Positions 12,687 to 29,306 of a stretch of 64,000 nucleotides of DNA are shown piece by piece. Origin of the DNA: an uncultured Clostridia bacterium (lineage in GTDB: Bacteria > Bacillota > Clostridia > TANB77 > CAG-508). The stretch's first letter is position 1, and every line of letters starts with the position of its first letter. Location: assembly GCA_947601495.1 (NCBI GenBank), contig CANQGE010000002.1, positions 124,001 to 188,000 of the forward strand, read 5' to 3'. The notes beneath the pieces were generated by a model. That model was not told the origin of the DNA and did not search any database. It worked only from the letters and a program-made list of their open reading frames with translations. The translations under genes and the position numbers were made by a program.

Positions 12687-13083
12687 TTATCTTTCAAATT
12701 CATTTAAATTTTTAAACTCATAACCCATGTTTTTAGCTTCTTTAATAATATCGTCTAAAATGTTTGCATTGTCTTTTGATGTTGCGTGAAGTAGCAAAAC
12801 AGCTCCACTATGCAAATTTTCTAATATTTTCTTTTTTCCATATTCTTCTCTATTTTGTTTTTCAGTATCCCAATCATCATAAGCCAAAGACCACATTACA
12901 GGAACATAGTTTAATTTGCTAATCGTATCTATAACTCTTCTACTGAATTCTCCTTTAGGTGGTCTAAAATATGTCATTTCATAACCAAATTTTTCATATA
13001 AGCTATTATGTAATTTCATAATTTCATCTTTTATTTCATCATCACTAATATTTGGCAAGCATTTATGATTAACAGTATGATTT
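12687..13083 (-). pseudogene. pdaA: pdaA, 3' part (C-terminal half of spore-cortex deacetylase), separated from its 5' part
   Basis: From the recombination core the frame reads H-T-V-N-H-K-C-L-P-N-I-S-D-D and continues through the PdaA C-terminal half, with YFRPPKGEFS, WSLAYDDW and LLLHATSKDNA all present. It corresponds residue for residue to the half missing from the fragment at 18192-18590. A TTG at 13058 gives a nominal 123-residue open frame, but no convincing ribosome binding site supports it as a separate gene. The fragment lacks the catalytic TFD motif, so alone it is unlikely to be active. See the 5' fragment and the intervening element. Confidence 0.9.
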
Positions 13084-13100
13084 TAAGTTATACGGATGAC
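13077..13100. other. Attachment site beside the recombinase (core plus element arm)
   Basis: On the + strand the core ATGATTT (13077-13083) is followed by the element arm TAAGTTATACGGATGAC (13084-13100). This arm matches, inverted, the arm at the other end of the element (GTCATC, two bases, TATA, one base, CTTA). Inverted arms around a short non-palindromic core are what a serine recombinase dimer pair binds. Confidence 0.8.
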
Positions 13101-13133
13101 TTTTTTTATTACTTGCTATTTATATTTTGACAT

Positions 13134-14738
13134 TCATTTTTTATTATTGGCTTGTGAAAAAGTTAATTCAACTGTAATTTTTTTATTACTATCGAATTCA
13201 ATTTTTTTTATTAGTTTTGAGTACATCTCTTTAGTAGGATTTTTCATTTGTAGTATGTCTTTTGCTAGCTTAATCATTTCTATATAATGTTTTTCTATAT
13301 CTTCTTTTTGTAATTTCATCATTTCTGTTTCTATTTGGTGAATTTGCATTAGCAGTTCTTTCTTTTCATTTTGCAATTTGTTATAAATTATAGTAAAGTC
13401 GTCTGTTGTTATAAGTTTATGTACTTTATCTTGATATACTTCTTGCATAATTTGCTCGTTTTCATCAATTTGTTTTTGTATATTTATTTTTTGCTTTCTT
13501 AATATATTAGTTTTACTTTGCACTTTTTCTCCAGCACTTTTATAAACATTCATTATTTCATCTTCTGTATAAGATATTTTTTCTATTTCTTCTTTAATTA
13601 CTTCTTGAACTTTGTTCTTTATTAATTCTTCTGTTATTGGCTTACATTTACAGCTCTTATTTTTGTTTTTATTTGAACACATAAAAGTTCTTTGTTCATA
13701 TATTTGTCCATTTTTTCTCTCGCTTCTTCTTACTTTGTAAGTTGCTTTTCCCCCACATTCTGCGCAAAATATATATTCCTTTAAAGGTACTTCATATCTT
13801 ATTGTTAATGAATTTCTATGTTTATTTAACTTATCTTGTGCTTTTTCCCAAGTTAGCTTGTCAATTATAGGCTCATGCATATTTTTTACAATAATATATT
13901 CATCTTTGCGTGTACTTCTTACTTTTTCCACCTTATGACTTACCTTTTGAAACTTTCTTCCAACTACACTACCTATATATACTTCATTTTTTAGCATTTT
14001 AGCTATTTGTTCACTGTGCCATATATAGCCTTCTGGATTTTTACTTTTTCTATTCATACATACTGGTATTTTTAAATATATTGCAGGAGCATCAATATTT
14101 TTTTCGTTTAACTTTTCTGCAATCTTTATTGTAGACATTCCCTTATATACATACATATCAAAAATTTCTTTTACTATATATCCTACGTTTTTATCTATTA
14201 CTAAATGATTTTTTACACTAGTATCCTTTTTATAACCATAAGGAGCTATTCCTCCTTGAAATTCACCTTTTTCAATCTTCCTTTTTTTTACACTTTTTAT
14301 TTTATTAGAAATATCTTGTGCATAATAATCATTAAAGCTCAATTTGAAGGTCAAAAATTGCAAGCCTTCTGGATTTATTGTATCAACATTATCTCCTATT
14401 GCTATATATCTAATATTATTTGCTGGCAAATATCTTTCTAAATAGTAACCTGTATCTATATGGTCTCTACCGAATCTCGATAAATCCTTTGTTATTATGC
14501 AATTTATTTTGCCTTCTTCTATATCTTGCAACATTTTTTTAAAGCCTGGCCTATTAAAATTTGTTCCTGTATAACCATCATCAGTATATTCTTCCACTGC
14601 CTCTAGTTCATTATGTTCTGTTATATAATTGTTTATTATATCTCTTTGATTTTCTATACTTTCGCTTTCTCGATTATCTCCATCATCTCTTGATAATCGC
14701 ATATATTTTGCTACTTTATAATTATCTATTCTTAGCAT
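13134..14738 (-). CDS. Large serine recombinase (534 aa)
   Basis: The resolvase domain (1-150) has the catalytic Ser16 in YMRLSRDDG, the conserved ENQR, DGYTGTNFNRPGF and ITKDLSRFGRD motifs and the YYAQDISNKIK segment. A recombinase DNA-binding domain follows (~170-300), then a zinc ribbon (CAECGG ... CSNKNKNKSCKC, ~325-365). A coiled coil (~390-480) comes next and a short tail. This is the TnpX/SpoIVCA-type layout that integrates and excises elements at short core sites. The gene ends 50 bases from the attachment core, the usual position for the element's own integrase. Its start overlaps the end of a 40-codon gene. Confidence 0.95.
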   Translation of the reverse strand: MLRIDNYKVAKYMRLSRDDGDNRESESIENQRDIINNYITEHNELEAVEEYTDDGYTGTNFNRPGFKKMLQDIEEGKINCIITKDLSRFGRDHIDTGYYLERYLPANNIRYIAIGDNVDTINPEGLQFLTFKLSFNDYYAQDISNKIKSVKKRKIEKGEFQGGIAPYGYKKDTSVKNHLVIDKNVGYIVKEIFDMYVYKGMSTIKIAEKLNEKNIDAPAIYLKIPVCMNRKSKNPEGYIWHSEQIAKMLKNEVYIGSVVGRKFQKVSHKVEKVRSTRKDEYIIVKNMHEPIIDKLTWEKAQDKLNKHRNSLTIRYEVPLKEYIFCAECGGKATYKVRRSERKNGQIYEQRTFMCSNKNKNKSCKCKPITEELIKNKVQEVIKEEIEKISYTEDEIMNVYKSAGEKVQSKTNILRKQKINIQKQIDENEQIMQEVYQDKVHKLITTDDFTIIYNKLQNEKKELLMQIHQIETEMMKLQKEDIEKHYIEMIKLAKDILQMKNPTKEMYSKLIKKIEFDSNKKITVELTFSQANNKK

Positions 14739-14854
14739 TTTCCATCCCTATTTTCCATTTTTTCAATAAAAGTTTTTTCTAATAAATTCGTTAATATTTC
14801 TTTCAGGTTTTCATTCCCATATATCTTTTTTACGCTATCTTTTAATTCTTTCAT
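14732..14854 (-). CDS. Small protein upstream of and overlapping the recombinase (40 aa)
   Basis: It starts at ATG 14854 with AGGAGG five bases upstream. The product begins MKELKDSVKK and is helical and charged. Its TGC-TAA end overlaps the recombinase ATG (ATGCTAA), so the two are translationally coupled. Function is unknown. The position suggests a partner or directionality factor of the recombinase, which is inference. Confidence 0.65.
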   Translation of the reverse strand: MKELKDSVKKIYGNENLKEILTNLLEKTFIEKMENRDGKC

Positions 14855-14898
14855 AATTTCCTCCTAATTTTTATATTAAAAGGTATTTTTGAAATTTC

Positions 14899-14907
14899 TA
14901 TTTTATG
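14899..14907 (-). promoter_or_regulatory. Possible mother-cell sigma factor -10 element before the recombinase operon
   Basis: CATAAAATA fits the CATAnnnTA -10 pattern of sigma-K promoters and nearly fits that of sigma-E. It is 45-53 bases upstream of the 40-aa gene start. I find no good -35 match at the right distance, and such A+T-rich words arise by chance here. Confidence 0.2.
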
Positions 14908-14940
14908 AATAAAATTTTAAAATTACATATTTTTTAACGC

Positions 14941-14975
14941 AAAAAAAGAGTTAGTATTAATCTAAAAATACTAAC
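14941..14975 (-). terminator. Terminator of the element's cargo operon
   Basis: GTTAGTATT pairs with AATACTAAC across an eight-base loop, followed on the - strand by CTCTTTTTTT. It separates the cargo operon from the recombinase operon. Confidence 0.85.
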
Positions 14976-15000
14976 CCAAATATTTATATAAAACTTTTTA

Positions 15001-15150
15001 TTATTCTTTTGCTAACAATTTCTTTATTTCTTCTTTTGTTTTTCCTTGTTCTAAATACATTTTTATTAGTTTTTGATTTTTTTCATATTCTTCTTTCTTC
15101 TCTTCTGGTATCCTTACCAATTTTCCATCATATGACTTTACTGTAATCAT
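15001..15150 (-). CDS. Small charged protein of the element cargo operon (49 aa)
   Basis: It starts at ATG 15150 behind a strong AAGGAGG site. The product begins MITVKSYDGKLVRIPEEKKE, a short beta-type start followed by a Lys/Glu-rich helix ending LLAKE. The gene lies 20 bases downstream of the 145-aa gene and just before the terminator. The family is not recognised. Confidence 0.65.
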   Translation of the reverse strand: MITVKSYDGKLVRIPEEKKEEYEKNQKLIKMYLEQGKTKEEIKKLLAKE

Positions 15151-15170
15151 TTATTTTTCCTCCTTAATCT

Positions 15171-15608
15171 TTATGTGTTTTTTAAAAAACTTTCTATCTT
15201 TTTTATTATCTTTGCAATTATATTTTCTTTTTTTGTGGTAAGAACTTTTGTAGTTTCTTCTTTTTCTTCATCTTGTATTTTTTTCTTAAATATATCATTA
15301 TAACTATATTTTTCTTCTTTTCTTTTATTTATTCTATTTCTTTCTTCTTGTTGCATTTTTATTATTTTTTCTTTTTGTTCATCAGTACATAAATAATCTC
15401 TAAATAAATTAAACAAAATTGCTCTCGTTTCTTTTAATAATTTTTGTTTTCTCAGTTCTACATTTTCATCATATATAAAAACATATTCTTTATTTTTAGA
15501 TTTTTCTATTGTTTCTATTACTTCTTTCGGAATTTTTTTATATTCTTCCATATTTAAATGGCTTAATATTGTAGAAACTTCTGTACATGCTTCATTATAA
15601 TTATTCAT
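15171..15608 (-). CDS. Small helical protein of the element cargo, paralogous to the gene at 49967-50644 (145 aa)
   Basis: Its ATG overlaps the stop region of the 826-aa gene by 8 bases, indicating coupling. The first ~100 residues follow the pattern E-V-x-x-I-L-x-H-L-N ... Y-K-K-I-P, then a second helical block with C-T-D-E-Q-K-E-K-I. A lysine-rich linker and a short amphipathic C-terminal helix (IIAKIIKKIESFLKN) follow. The same order of motifs appears in the chromosomal 225-aa protein (EIDYIINHMNE ... NKVPEK ... CEDEKRKQELY ... IKEKIMSLFKK). I infer they are one family. No function is known to me. Confidence 0.6.
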   Translation of the reverse strand: MNNYNEACTEVSTILSHLNMEEYKKIPKEVIETIEKSKNKEYVFIYDENVELRKQKLLKETRAILFNLFRDYLCTDEQKEKIIKMQQEERNRINKRKEEKYSYNDIFKKKIQDEEKEETTKVLTTKKENIIAKIIKKIESFLKNT

Positions 15609-18081
15609 CTGTTACTTCCTCATTTCCTTTTGTGGTATCTTTGCTTTGTCCCTTCATGTTTTTATCTACTTCATCACACATTTCAACACTAGATTCCAAT
15701 CCTGCCATTCCTATAGCTTGTCCTGTCAAATCTCTTTTTCCTAACTCGTCAAATTTCTTTCTTACTTCTATTAAATCTCCCAAATCAGAGTCTCTTCCAA
15801 TTATTTGCAAGTTTCCTAAATTTGTTATTTGTGCATTTCCAAAAGTAGCTCTTTCACCTATACTTTGTAGATTTCCTAAACTTGTTACTTTTGAGTCAGT
15901 AAAATAAGCATCTCTACCTATACTTTGTAAATTTCCTAAATCTGTTATTTGTGAATTTCTAAATTTAGCATCTCTTCCTATGCTTTGTAAATTTCCTAAA
16001 TTTGTTACTTGTGAATCTGAAAAATCTCCATCTGCTCCTATACTTTGTAGGTTTCCTAAACTTGTTATTTTAGAGCCATGAAATGAAGCACTTCCTCCTA
16101 TGCTTTTCAAATTTCCTAAGTCTCTTACTTTACCGAAAAAAATAGCATCTCCACCTATCATTTGTAGCTTTTCTAGGTCTGTTATTTCTGAAAGTAAAAA
16201 ATCAGCTTTTCCAAATATGGCTACATATGGATTTTTTGTTAACTTTGCAAGATTTGCATCTCCTATACAAATTTCTTCTTCTGTGCATTGATAATATTCT
16301 GCTATTAATCCTTTTATTTTTTTCAAACTTTCTTTTAGTTGTTTTTTATTTGAATTTTCTCCGCCTTCATGAGTTGTAAAATCTTTTTTAAAACAATATT
16401 CTATAAGATTTGGTATATCTTCTAAAGTTATTTTTCCGTCATCTATTTTTTTCTTATATTCTATTAAACTTTTATTCCATTTCTCTCGTTCTAACCACTC
16501 TTTTCCATTTGCATTTCTATTGTTCTCTAAAAATGATATAGCTACTTCTTCATATTCTTCTTCCATTTCTTGAGCGTCTCCATTTTTTATTCCTCTTACT
16601 TCAGCTATTTCCTCTCCTTCCATTCTTACTGCTATATGTGGTTTTCCTTCATTATCTACAAATACATAAAAATCTCCTTCTGCTAGTTGTAATGATGCAA
16701 ATTGTTTTGTACACCATGGTGTATCTTGTACTAGTGCTGCTAATTTTTTTGCTCCTTCTAGATAATCTTCTTTTTTTGTGCCTTTCTCTTCTGCTTCTCT
16801 TTCTTCTGTTTCTTTACTTTTAAATTTTATCCATTTTCCCTTTCCATATGTATCCACTCCTTTTAAATCTATTCCTCTACTACCTGCTACTTTTCTTTTA
16901 TATGTTTCTATTACTTTAAAATATATATCTGCAAAATTGGAGTTCTTTAGTAGCTCTTCTAAACCTTCAATATCTTCTAAATTTACTTCAATTTTAGTAT
17001 TTGCTGTATTTGCTGTACTTTCTGCATTTTCTACATTTTGTACATTTTCTATATTTTCTATTTTTTTTGAAATTTCATATATATATTTTAATATTTCTTC
17101 ATTTAATATCATATGACTCGCTATAGTTTTATGCAAGTCCCTGCTTTTTACTATTGTTACTGCATCTTTTGATTTTTTATCTTCATCTATTTTTCTGTAT
17201 ACCTTTTTTAATGTTTCTCGAAGCATCATACATTTAAAGGCTGGATCATCTATTTCAGATTTTTTTATTACATCTACTATTTGTCTATATTCAGCATATA
17301 ATTGCTTACTTATTCTTTCTGCTATTTTTTTACATTTTTTCTCTTTTTCAGTTTCACTTTCCAAGTTTGGATCGTATTCTCCTTTTGCTTTTAATGCCTT
17401 TATATCATTATCATATTCTCTTTTCACTTCTTCACTTGTTGGATCTATTTGCATTTCTGTTTCTTGTAATTCGCATAATTTTTTTAAATATGCTTCTATG
17501 TCTGCCCTTATTTTTTCTCCTCTTTCTTTCCAATTTCCTTGTGGTTTTTTTCTCTTTTTCCCATCATAATAATTTTGTACAAATATTTTTTCCCATCTGC
17601 TTAATTCTTTTGTATTTCTTAGATTTGCATCTATACTTAAATTTAAATATCTTTTTTCTTCTAGTCCTTTTTCTATCTCTCCTAAAAATTCTTCTCCTAT
17701 TTTTAATCCTTTGTCATATTCAAAACTTAAGTTATTTACCATCATATCTATTGCTATTTCATTATCTAATACTCCTTTTGCTATTTCCTCTTCTGAATAT
17801 ATTCCAAAATATCTTAACTCATAATCTTTTCTTATTTCTTCAAGCTCATCTTTATGTTCTTCTAATAAACGTGTTTTTATTTTTTCAAATTCTGGAGTAT
17901 TTTCAAAAAAATGTAATAATTCATGTTTATTTGTTTTTTCATAATCTTGGTCTATACTTTCATTTATATAGATAGTTCTTCCTAATGCATATCCTAATAT
18001 ACTTTCATCTCTTATAAATTCTGTTTTTATTCCAAATCTATTATTAAATTCTATTATTCTTTGTTTTATTTCTTCGTTCAT
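15601..18081 (-). CDS. Multidomain cargo protein: zincin-like head, PcfJ-like middle, 20-residue solenoid repeats (826 aa)
   Basis: Residues 53-57 are HELLH, a zinc-metalloprotease HExxH motif, in a small N-terminal domain. The middle is charged and helical. Around residues 450-510 is DTPWCTK ... GDFYVFVDNEGKPHIAVRM ... IAEVRGIKN, which resembles PcfJ-like proteins of plasmids and integrative elements. Residues ~631-768 form seven 20-residue repeats of the type LGNLQSIGRDAxFxxSxITx, a leucine-rich solenoid. There is no signal peptide or membrane helix. It is the main cargo of the element in pdaA. The domain similarities are from motif reading only. A role in defence, toxin delivery or element maintenance is possible but unproven. 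Confidence 0.7.
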   Translation of the reverse strand: MNEEIKQRIIEFNNRFGIKTEFIRDESILGYALGRTIYINESIDQDYEKTNKHELLHFFENTPEFEKIKTRLLEEHKDELEEIRKDYELRYFGIYSEEEIAKGVLDNEIAIDMMVNNLSFEYDKGLKIGEEFLGEIEKGLEEKRYLNLSIDANLRNTKELSRWEKIFVQNYYDGKKRKKPQGNWKERGEKIRADIEAYLKKLCELQETEMQIDPTSEEVKREYDNDIKALKAKGEYDPNLESETEKEKKCKKIAERISKQLYAEYRQIVDVIKKSEIDDPAFKCMMLRETLKKVYRKIDEDKKSKDAVTIVKSRDLHKTIASHMILNEEILKYIYEISKKIENIENVQNVENAESTANTANTKIEVNLEDIEGLEELLKNSNFADIYFKVIETYKRKVAGSRGIDLKGVDTYGKGKWIKFKSKETEEREAEEKGTKKEDYLEGAKKLAALVQDTPWCTKQFASLQLAEGDFYVFVDNEGKPHIAVRMEGEEIAEVRGIKNGDAQEMEEEYEEVAISFLENNRNANGKEWLEREKWNKSLIEYKKKIDDGKITLEDIPNLIEYCFKKDFTTHEGGENSNKKQLKESLKKIKGLIAEYYQCTEEEICIGDANLAKLTKNPYVAIFGKADFLLSEITDLEKLQMIGGDAIFFGKVRDLGNLKSIGGSASFHGSKITSLGNLQSIGADGDFSDSQVTNLGNLQSIGRDAKFRNSQITDLGNLQSIGRDAYFTDSKVTSLGNLQSIGERATFGNAQITNLGNLQIIGRDSDLGDLIEVRKKFDELGKRDLTGQAIGMAGLESSVEMCDEVDKNMKGQSKDTTKGNEEVTDE

Positions 18082-18177
18082 TTTTATTTTTCCTCTTTTT
18101 TCCCTATTCTTTATTTAATAGAAGTTTACTATACCTAAAATTTATTTTCAATATGTTTATATATATTTTATTTTCAA

Positions 18178-18204
18178 GTCATCTCTATATCTTAAAAATG
18201 ATTT
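18178..18204. other. Attachment site at the cargo end (element arm plus core)
   Basis: The element arm at 18178-18197 starts GTCATC and is followed by the core ATGATTT (18198-18204), after which the pdaA 5' part begins. The arm is the inverted match of the arm at 13084-13100. In the excised circle the two arms would flank one core copy in a 44-bp imperfect palindrome whose centre falls on TG within the shared core. Confidence 0.8.
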
Positions 18205-18590
18205 CCAACAATGTGACCTTCTTCTATCATTCTTTTAACTATATCACTTGCAGAATTTAAGTAATGACCTGTTATAAAAAAACTTGCTTTAACATTATTT
18301 TGGGATAAAACATCTAAAATTTTTTCTGTGTACCCGCATTCATATCCGCAATCAAAAGTTAAATATATTTTTTTTGATTCTTTATTTCCCATGGAAATGC
18401 CATTATAATCTTGTATTACTTTATTAGAATTTGCATCTAAAATTGCTTGCTCGTGATTTTTTCCTCTTTTAAATCCCCATGCTAAAAGTTTATTATCTAA
18501 AGTATCTGCATTAGAATATAAACAAAATTGAAAAATGCATATAATTAATAAGAAAAACGCCAATAGGTGTTTTATTATTTTTTCTTTCAT
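18192..18590 (-). CDS. pdaA: pdaA, 5' part (N-terminal half of delta-lactam-forming peptidoglycan de-N-acetylase)
   Basis: PdaA removes acetyl groups from N-acetylmuramic acid on the way to muramic delta-lactam in the spore cortex. This fragment has a signal peptide (1-28), the PdaA-specific WGFKRGKNHE segment and the NodB motif 1 in IYLTFDCGYECGYT. It then runs through SFFITGHYL to EGHIVGNH, where one element-derived codon and a stop follow. The missing half lies at 12687-13083. Joined at the AAATCAT core, the product would be 260 residues, the usual PdaA length, with no gap or overlap. The split falls inside motif 2 (H-S/T-x-x-H), which binds the metal, so the fragment should be inactive. 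A good AGGAGG precedes the ATG. Confidence 0.92.
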   Translation of the reverse strand: MKEKIIKHLLAFFLLIICIFQFCLYSNADTLDNKLLAWGFKRGKNHEQAILDANSNKVIQDYNGISMGNKESKKIYLTFDCGYECGYTEKILDVLSQNNVKASFFITGHYLNSASDIVKRMIEEGHIVGNHF

Positions 18591-18638
18591 ATAAGCCTCC
18601 TATTTTTAAAGTTACTAAAATTTATTCCTTATTAATTT

Positions 18639-18667
18639 TTATATGCATTTAAATTTTTTATATATTC
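18639..18667 (-). promoter_or_regulatory. Candidate sigma-G-type promoter of pdaA
   Basis: GAATA (18663-18667) and CATATAA (18639-18645) are 17 bases apart, about 50 bases upstream of the pdaA start. The first matches the sigma-G -35 pattern gHATR in full, the second matches CATnHTA at six of seven positions. pdaA is a forespore sigma-G gene in Bacillus subtilis. Chance matches are possible in this A+T-rich DNA. Confidence 0.4.
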
Positions 18668-27859: not shown

Positions 27860-29239
27860 TTAGGTCTTCACGATGATGTCGTCGTCCTTGGGTCCCACTC
27901 CAATATATTTTACTGGTACTTCCGAGAATTTCTCGATAATCTCGATGAACTTTTTCGCCTTCTCAGGCAGTTCATCATAGCTTCTCAAGTTGCTCGAGAT
28001 TTTCCAGCCCCCTTTCAGAGTTTTGTAAATTGGAGTCGGAACTTCCCCGGTGAGTTCCATGTCATCGGGATAGTAGTCTATCTTCTTCCCAAGATACTCG
28101 TATGCGACACATACCTTGACCTCGCCAAGCGCTTCTCCGATTTTTCCGATTGTGTCGAGATGGTTGATGCATTGAACATCTGCGCCTAATGCTTCGCCAG
28201 CGCACTTCAAAATAACAGCATCAGCCCAGCCAACACGTCTCGGACGCCCTGTTGAAACTCCGTACTCGTGCCCCAGTTCCCTGATTACATCACCAGCAAA
28301 CGGTTCCATATAGGGTAAAACCTTGTCGTTTGCTATGTGAGCCTCCAGTTCAGTGGGAAACGGACCGTTGCCAACACGAGATGCATATGCTTTTGAAACC
28401 ATTATGACTTCATCCATGTCTTTATGGTTCAAATGAGCTCCAATCATAGCTCCTGCTGTTACACAGTTACTAGACGTGACGTTTGGATAGTCACCGTAGT
28501 TCTTGTCCAAACGATATGCCTGAGCACCTTCAACAATGACCTTGTAGCCATTCTTGCGTGCCCATCGTGTAACGGTATCGCCATTGACAACCATAGAACT
28601 CAAAATACTTGCGTATTTGCTTGAGAGTTCCCTAGCCAGCTCCACAGGTTTGATGAGACTATCCTTCATATTGAATGCCTCAAAGAGGACGTTCAGTATT
28701 CTGGCTGCCACACTGATTTTGCCGGCAAGCTTCTCCTCGGGAAGAAGTAGGTCATAAACTCTGAGTCCAAACCGGTTGTCATAGTCAGAGTACGTGGGAC
28801 CAATGCCCCGTTTCGTTGTTCCTACGGGCTTGTCTTTTGCCCGCTCGTACAGCTCATCCATGTCCTTGTGATAAGGTAAAACAACGGGAGCTCTTCCCGA
28901 AATTTTAATCCTCCCTCTCACATCAGGAATGCCGTACTCCTCGAGTTCTTCAAGTTCCTTCAGAAACAGGATTGGGTCGAATGCGACGCCTTGCCCTATG
29001 AGGCAAATGGCATCCGGGCTGGTAATTCCTCCGGGAATCAGATGCAATCCGATTTTCTTCCCATTGTAAATCACAGTGTGCCCGGCGTTTGCGCCACCAG
29101 TTGCACGTATTACAAGCCGTGCATCTTTTGACGCGGATTCGGCAGAAGCAATCTTTCCCTTTCCTTCATCTCCCCACATTGCGCCAGCAACGTATGTGGC
29201 TATGGGAAGATAACCGCCTTCTACACTATTTGTTGCCAA
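27860..29239 (-). CDS. purA: Adenylosuccinate synthetase PurA, compositionally foreign (459 aa)
   Basis: PurA joins aspartate to IMP with GTP, the first step from IMP to AMP. Conserved parts are MWGDEGKGK with the catalytic Asp, GGANAGHT with the catalytic His (the His usually found two residues after GG is Ala), GTTKRGIGP, VEGAQ, VTSSN, STGRPRRVGWADAV and the C-terminal VPVKYIGVGP. I place the start at TTG 29239, which has AGGAG nine bases upstream. A GTG at 29296 is in frame but sits at the predicted transcript start. The protein is longer than the usual ~430 residues. Its DNA is roughly half G+C by eye, with C/G-ending codons, in contrast to every neighbour, which points to recent acquisition. 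No other purine synthesis genes adjoin it. Confidence 0.92.
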   Translation of the reverse strand: MATNSVEGGYLPIATYVAGAMWGDEGKGKIASAESASKDARLVIRATGGANAGHTVIYNGKKIGLHLIPGGITSPDAICLIGQGVAFDPILFLKELEELEEYGIPDVRGRIKISGRAPVVLPYHKDMDELYERAKDKPVGTTKRGIGPTYSDYDNRFGLRVYDLLLPEEKLAGKISVAARILNVLFEAFNMKDSLIKPVELARELSSKYASILSSMVVNGDTVTRWARKNGYKVIVEGAQAYRLDKNYGDYPNVTSSNCVTAGAMIGAHLNHKDMDEVIMVSKAYASRVGNGPFPTELEAHIANDKVLPYMEPFAGDVIRELGHEYGVSTGRPRRVGWADAVILKCAGEALGADVQCINHLDTIGKIGEALGEVKVCVAYEYLGKKIDYYPDDMELTGEVPTPIYKTLKGGWKISSNLRSYDELPEKAKKFIEIIEKFSEVPVKYIGVGPKDDDIIVKT

Positions 29240-29306
29240 AAGGTTCCACTCCTTTCTAAAGTTTACACACCCTAGAGCCAAAGTTACCATAATCACTTAC
29301 GGCAAA

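Follow-up and report, generated by a model that had tools for sequence, protein, structure and literature searches.

Is a spore gene that lies in two pieces lost to its host, or can it be made whole again? The pdaA gene in a 64,000-nucleotide stretch from an uncultured Clostridia bacterium (G000:C2:124001-188000, hereafter the window) raises this question: its two parts, at 18590-18199 and 13079-12687 on the minus strand, are separated by a 5,121-bp element. A preliminary description, made from the letters of the window, had recognised the split, and two half-length matches to the NCBIfam model TIGR02884 (spore_pdaA) on either side of the insertion bear it out; the span it gave, 12687..18590, covers the gene and the element together, while the element proper occupies 13078-18198. 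TIGR02884 is the best-matching family for both parts, ahead of any other, and each scores under its whole-protein cut-off of 298 bits, as expected because each is half a protein. The cut falls inside the metal-binding motif (GNH/TVNH), between two histidines of the metal site. The 5' part ends in ...GHIVGNH followed by F and a stop; the 3' part picks up at ...NHTVNHKCLP, with an in-frame stop just upstream and no start codon ahead of the motif.

The crossover can be placed at the dinucleotide CA (TG on the plus strand), at 13078-13079 and 18199-18200, and CA is present at the crossover in the verified junctions. The junction repeat AAATCAT reported earlier is there, the plus strand reading ATGATTT at both junctions. 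Around CA, the two ends of the element are imperfect inverted repeats of each other, matching at 18 of 22 positions – a score equalled by none of 20,000 random window pairs – and in one related element (L068) the ten bases on each side of CA are perfect inverted repeats. attL and attR thus show the attP-type inverted repeat around a central dinucleotide that marks an element integrated by a serine integrase.

Consistent with the earlier proposal that excision would restore pdaA exactly, the lengths add up without joining the parts (390 + 2 + 391 nt = 783 nt, or the proposed 260 codons plus a stop), and a close relative (G032, locus L013) has the same site empty. The window flanks match L013 at 97.5% identity over 1,782 bp, with 1 gap in the aligned bases, and at 94.9% over 1,573 bp, with 0 gaps. 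Aligned separately, they place window position 13073 at L013 position 1878 and 18199 at 1883. The empty site carries no footprint, because the 4 bases that separate the flanks in L013 are all pdaA core (L013 reads GGAAACCACACAGTTAATCAT).

This precise insertion at CA recurs across genera. In a family sample of 390 species-level genomes from 39 genera, drawn evenly from a larger group, at least 66 genomes (17%) in 20 genera carry an element at the same CA of pdaA: 23 have both halves on one contig, 32 were recognised by the 5' junction and 11 by the 3' junction only. A first count of about 100 split genomes, based on half-size best pdaA scores, proved too high when the 104 candidates were searched again. 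Besides the 66 with a sequenced element junction, 22 fetched loci (L044-L063, L118, L119) lacked an element and were frameshifted by +1 at CGG, and one genome that breaks at the crossover (G239) was not counted; 66 is a lower bound because 15 of the 104 remain without assignment. The window's genus contributes 3 of 53 genomes (G000, G007 and G034) in which two half-matches meet at this place. Outside the family (154 of 157 class-wide genomes), none of the matches listed had the 3'-half signature (start 90-97, end 223). In G239 (L307, L308), two contigs end exactly at CA, one with ...GGTAATCA and the other starting CATACTG; such a break may reflect integrated and empty forms coexisting in the sample, or mixed strains.

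The element had been described as a serine-recombinase element, and the domain matches, PHROG 95 and the nearest solved sequences (TnpX and SPbeta YokA) of its 534-aa recombinase agree. To place relatives of this enzyme in named genomes we took the best 80 of 309 confirmed matches. At 50-84% best-segment identity, 38 of 44 loci adjoin a pdaA part; the other six (L146, L156, L163, L168, L173, L184) have no assignable place and lie mostly on short or cut contigs; in L168, flanks of 5.9 kb and 7 kb contain no pdaA. None of the 36 relatives with identities up to 42% adjoins pdaA. According to the preliminary description, a random insertion would be favoured by related strains with this site empty and the element at other, unrelated loci; G032 supplies the empty site, but with 38 of the 44 loci beside pdaA and six not assignable, unrelated locations were not found. 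A midpoint-rooted tree unites 73 pdaA-located rows (some genomes appear twice) and 5 not assignable rows in one clade (support 0.99), with 46 other rows outside. L070, labelled pdaA yet outside the clade, is a second recombinase inside the element of G156. Viral relatives of the recombinase reach 34% identity or less (11 loci).

Across 630 pairs, recombinase identity shows no relation to pdaA identity (Spearman 0.03), and the 38-base left end of the G156 element is identical in seven genomes of five genera, G156 included. Vertical inheritance of the element is not supported; synonymous divergence (dS) of the recombinase is lower than that of pdaA in six of eight pairs of element-bearing species, about equal in G083/G255 and higher in G146/G176, which suggests turnover. 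In four same-genus pairs, element and flank blocks align in the same order. The 22 elements listed measure 2.6-10.5 kb and differ in cargo. All 22 have the recombinase on the pdaA strand, and in 19 it is the last gene before attR (exceptions L033, L067 and L082). The G156 element in pdaA, at ~63 kb, is conjugative-element-like, since its genes include those for two relaxases (PF03432), a TraG-type ATPase and ParB; the recombinase that adjoins the pdaA 3' part there (L148) is close to that of the window. Near the far end of the G156 element is a second, distant 693-aa recombinase (L070, L295-L297), and one conjugative element is possibly nested in another. These comparisons indicate that the element is not tied to one pdaA by descent and is part of a horizontally mobile family using pdaA as attB. 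The earlier label of a pdaA-intervening element therefore holds for its position in pdaA and its skin-like architecture, but the element is one member of a mobile family whose attB is pdaA in at least 20 genera.

The interrupted halves are well kept. The 5' parts are open to the junction in 53 of 55 examined, the exceptions (L103, L106) having a +1 frameshift at CGG, and, measured from RPP to the stop, all 47 3' parts are 91-93 codons long (L070, which holds no 3' part, was left out). The ratio of nonsynonymous to synonymous divergence (dN/dS) of pdaA is 0.04-0.28 in the eight pairs, part of whose branches may predate the insertions. A decaying pseudogene, or two halves acting as separate proteins, would account for a gene in two pieces in the assembly; we consider this very improbable in view of 102 parts without decay save the two CGG frameshifts, a window 3' part with no start before the motif and a cut between the two metal-site histidines.

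Could the host simply rely on another copy? The window genome is a 1.67-Mb assembly in 32 contigs, 72.7% complete, and the second intact pdaA that the preliminary description wanted excluded was not found in it, the only TIGR02884 matches being the two window parts. Judging from its family, PdaA is needed for germination. The host encodes SASP, SpoIVA and CwlD, and the interrupted gene, taking PdaA function from the family, would be needed only in sporulation. In the same genome sigK is split at the skin-type site, its pieces lying at contig ends in C5 and C29 (G000:C5:30-374, G000:C29:64-420), the 5' piece ending ...CIENAILTY-stop and the 3' piece containing ...ANEILMYLR...; in G035 (L301), two sigK pieces lie ~6 kb apart with a distant recombinase relative (30% identity) between them. 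Skin-type excision is probably in use in the lineage of the window genome, because sigK is in two pieces in both. Half-length sigK matches also occur in G016, G020, G022, G027 and G043.

The cell compartment in which pdaA is expressed bears directly on excision. In C. difficile, the mother cell produces CwlD and the forespore PdaA, whose gene is reported to be under sigma-G (excerpt of PMC3789822); with PdaA made in the forespore, excision would be heritable, and we therefore compared upstream regions. A motif of the window's genus, CATA-N13-15-GAATA, precedes pdaA in 19 of 34 rows, window included (shuffled mean 0.15), and the mother-cell gene spoIVA in 12 of 30 (0.14), as against 0 of 21 for the forespore gene ssp (0.23) and 0 of 29 for pdaA of other genera. 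The classical sigma-E pattern, ATA-N15-17-CATANNAT, occurs at pdaA in 9 of 29 rows from other genera (0.4 expected), in 7 of 20 from element-bearing genomes (0.28) and in 1 of 34 from the window's genus (0.46), and at ssp in 0 of 21. Tried at the recombinases after the genus pattern had failed there, it gave an exploratory finding of 18 in 43 operons (1.6 expected, max 6; 19 of 46 against 2.0 before L070, L130 and the duplicate L182 were removed). A looser form, TCATA[AGT][AGT]AT, is found at 26 of 46 pdaA-clade recombinases (24 of 43 cleaned) and 4 of 34 non-pdaA recombinases (1.9 expected), with 2 of 30 spoIVA and 1 of 21 ssp as controls. The ssp rows, from 21 of 30 loci, span 110 nt for the classical patterns, with the promoter seemingly further up, and 230 nt for the others; 32 of 95 pdaA upstream rows with a misplaced start were dropped, all 95 giving 29 with another, looser pattern. 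The two putative promoter forms differ in backing, the genus form having spoIVA and the classical form only the sigma-E consensus.

These motifs bear on germ-line switching, in which the element would leave in the forespore and return after germination (active lysogeny). Serine integrases can reintegrate, and the ending of the G239 contigs at CA on both sides is what one would expect of a mixed population. The sigma-G control of pdaA in C. difficile (PMC3789822, excerpt) also speaks for it. We nevertheless judge it improbable, as genus pdaA shares its motif with spoIVA (19/34 and 12/30) and not with ssp (0/21), and the classical sigma-E pattern stands at 9 of 29 pdaA genes of other genera.

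A stronger competitor is an ordinary integrative element whose attB happens to be pdaA: carriers would lack PdaA until chance excision, with no developmental control, and recent insertions would outrun purging. It would explain why recombinase identity does not track pdaA identity, the identical 38-base ends in five genera, the presence at the pdaA site of a 63-kb element that encodes relaxases and a TraG-type ATPase, the variable cargo and the lower recombinase dS in six of eight pairs, and the window operon indeed lacks a full mother-cell motif. Yet 17% of the sampled family genomes carry the element while 102 half-genes are undecayed save two CGG frameshifts, mother-cell-type motifs stand at pdaA and at many recombinase operons, and a split sigK is kept in the same genome. 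On balance we regard this explanation as unlikely.

We lean towards a mobile element that used its own large serine recombinase to enter pdaA (attP x attB) and that works like a skin element. Exact restorability, together with sister elements at the same two bases across genera, suggests developmental reassembly of pdaA, and we infer developmental excision as the best explanation. In the sporulating mother cell, a sigma-E-type factor would transcribe pdaA and the operon of small open reading frame (ORF) and recombinase; the recombinase would cut the element out at CA, with direction probably given by the 40-aa protein. Whole pdaA would then be made in the mother cell, where PdaA would act with CwlD to form the cortex muramic delta-lactam, while the forespore chromosome would retain the element and hence pass it on. 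For the scheme to hold, pdaA must be expressed in the mother cell here, in contrast to C. difficile, and the motifs fit such a shift. We would give a little under an even chance to a broader version: that the recombinase clade has specialised on one spore gene, with pdaA under mother-cell control as a safe harbour, so that anything from 2.6-kb cassettes to a 63-kb conjugative element could move between genera and be excised only in the doomed mother cell under pdaA's sigma type.

Several observations weigh against developmental excision. No circle or attP junction was found: one 25-base junction pattern had 0 matches in viral contigs, and three attP patterns had 0 matches across the loci collected. 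A second pdaA could be missed because the genome is only 72.7% complete, and many insertions may have happened too recently to leave visible decay, because recombinase dS is below pdaA dS in six of eight pairs. The window's recombinase operon lacks the ATA-spaced pattern and has only the -10-like TTCATAAAATAG; recombinases show no enrichment of the genus-type motif (3/46, with 3.35 expected; 5/46 against 7.2 in another count). Among G000, G007 and G034, only the window has the genus-type pdaA motif, and element-bearing rows have it in 1 of 20. The classical pattern fails on spoIVA of the genus, the sigma-E control (2/30, 0.42 expected; controls limited to this genus), and is present at 6 of 34 non-pdaA recombinases (1.2 expected, max 5); because recombinase sequences are related, the motif counts are not independent. 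Finally, pdaA is under sigma-G in C. difficile (excerpt of PMC3789822).

Read-through from the pdaA promoter into the recombinase was considered and not adopted, as a terminator-like hairpin stands ahead of the window operon (2 such hairpins in the region on both strands, 0.7 expected). The shared strand in 22 of 22 elements lends it no support, because the asymmetric core fixes orientation.

Directly before the recombinase is the 40-aa ORF, which has no Pfam match; for relatives, too, nothing reached a cut-off. An ORF of ~40 aa with a common YG-x-ENLK-x-IL core stands ahead of many clade recombinases, making it a candidate directionality factor; known or proposed factors are of similar size (53 and 72 aa; excerpt of PMC10747680). 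The 826-aa cargo protein has no Pfam or PADLOC family and a weak match to PHROG 8745 (tail fibre, E 2.5e-4). Its HELLHFF is presumably a zincin-like motif. Of the three ORFs scanned (826, 145 and 534 aa), the recombinase alone matches a PHROG strongly, leaving no phage structural genes, and no relaxase or transfer families were found. By gene content the window element would qualify neither as a prophage nor as an integrative conjugative element.

Features of the split pdaA locus (window positions)
Feature	Position	Strand	Remarks
pdaA 3' part	12687..13079	-	HTVNH to stop; TIGR02884 model 98-223, E 3.2e-39
attR	13065..13103	-	
Inserted element	13078..18198	-	5,121 bp, GC about 0.26; absent in G032
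Large serine recombinase, 534 aa	13134..14738	-	Resolvase + Recombinase + Zn_ribbon_recom; PHROG 95 integrase E 2e-98
40-aa ORF overlapping recombinase start	14732..14854	-	Candidate directionality factor
-10-like motif TTCATAAAATAG	14898..14909	-	Ahead of small ORF/recombinase operon; lacks ATA-spaced -35 part
Terminator-like hairpin	14948..14977	-	Between cargo and recombinase operon
49-aa ORF	15001..15150	-	
Cargo ORF, 145 aa	15171..15608	-	No family match above cut-off
Cargo ORF, 826 aa	15601..18081	-	HELLHFF plus repeated LGNLQSIG-type units
attL	18176..18208	-	
pdaA 5' part	18199..18590	-	Signal sequence, motif TFD, up to GNH; TIGR02884 model 2-95, E 1.3e-35; open to crossover
Promoter-like CATA-N14-GAATA	18623..18645	-	Upstream of pdaA; same type upstream of spoIVA in genus

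The closest known systems are the skin elements of sigK in B. subtilis and C. difficile – likewise serine-recombinase elements in a late sporulation gene that is restored exactly on excision. The pdaA elements differ in a target that is not a sigma factor, in their size (2.6-10.5 kb in 22 measured) and in their horizontal spread; the window has its small ORF immediately ahead of the recombinase, and excision is proposed from sequence. The TnpX-type large serine recombinases share the domain layout and include the nearest solved catalytic domain (structure 2mhc), and we take them to belong to mobilizable transposons such as Tn4451; the window element departs from them in its fixed attB in one conserved gene and its inverted-repeat ends. 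In the C. difficile skin element, the recombinase is constitutive and the small protein CD1234 (53 aa) gives direction (excerpts of PMC5025042 and PMC10747680). The gin element in gerE of B. cereus is also gene-intervening without phage genes, with a serine recombinase, the extra factor GirX and a 9-bp common core, but it differs in its 28.6 kb, three recombinases, gerE target and proved excision (excerpt of PMC5595907). Elements in other sporulation genes include vfbin (spoVFB), SPbeta (spsM), whose recombinase YokA is among the nearest solved sequences to the window's, and yin (yabG); these are prophages or prophage-like, and none lies in pdaA, in the excerpt of PMC10747680.

The preliminary description knew of no described element in pdaA, and we too found none in the open-access PubMed Central (PMC) literature. 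The skin kind is known; new here are the target and a form that is horizontally mobile and occurs family-wide. A cortex enzyme thereby joins the targets described in the papers cited above (sigK, spsM, spoVFB, gerE and yabG). Because at least 66 of 390 genomes have the same gene struck at the same dinucleotide, comparison among them can test how element, target and compartment are linked, and the clade offers a serine integrase family with a known natural attB. If developmental excision is true, pdaA is predicted to have changed compartment in this lineage. Automatic annotation would be likely to label such pdaA genes broken or lost.

A separate pattern emerged from the frameshifted genes: many family pdaA and recombinase genes have one additional C ahead of a glycine codon, creating CGG (C-GGN), with both reading frames otherwise intact. 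It is present in all 20 element-free split pdaA loci fetched (L044-L063), also in L036 and L039-L042; in L035, L037 and L038 the pdaA break falls at the same residue as in L036. All 27 printed joins of 25 recombinase loci have it, some genes twice (L033, L034, L066, L067, L069, L071-L080, L083, L117, L120, L123, L130, L131, L133, L136, L137, L141). In hosts as well as in mobile elements, the pattern resembles +1 decoding that is tolerated or programmed; no report on +1 decoding at CGG was found by title or abstract. CGG is rare in the window (5 of 17,552 codons), and 4 of the 5 are in one atypical 476-aa ORF (27862-29290) in a stretch of ~48% GC (28001-29000) within the 27% GC window, probably a recent foreign gene.

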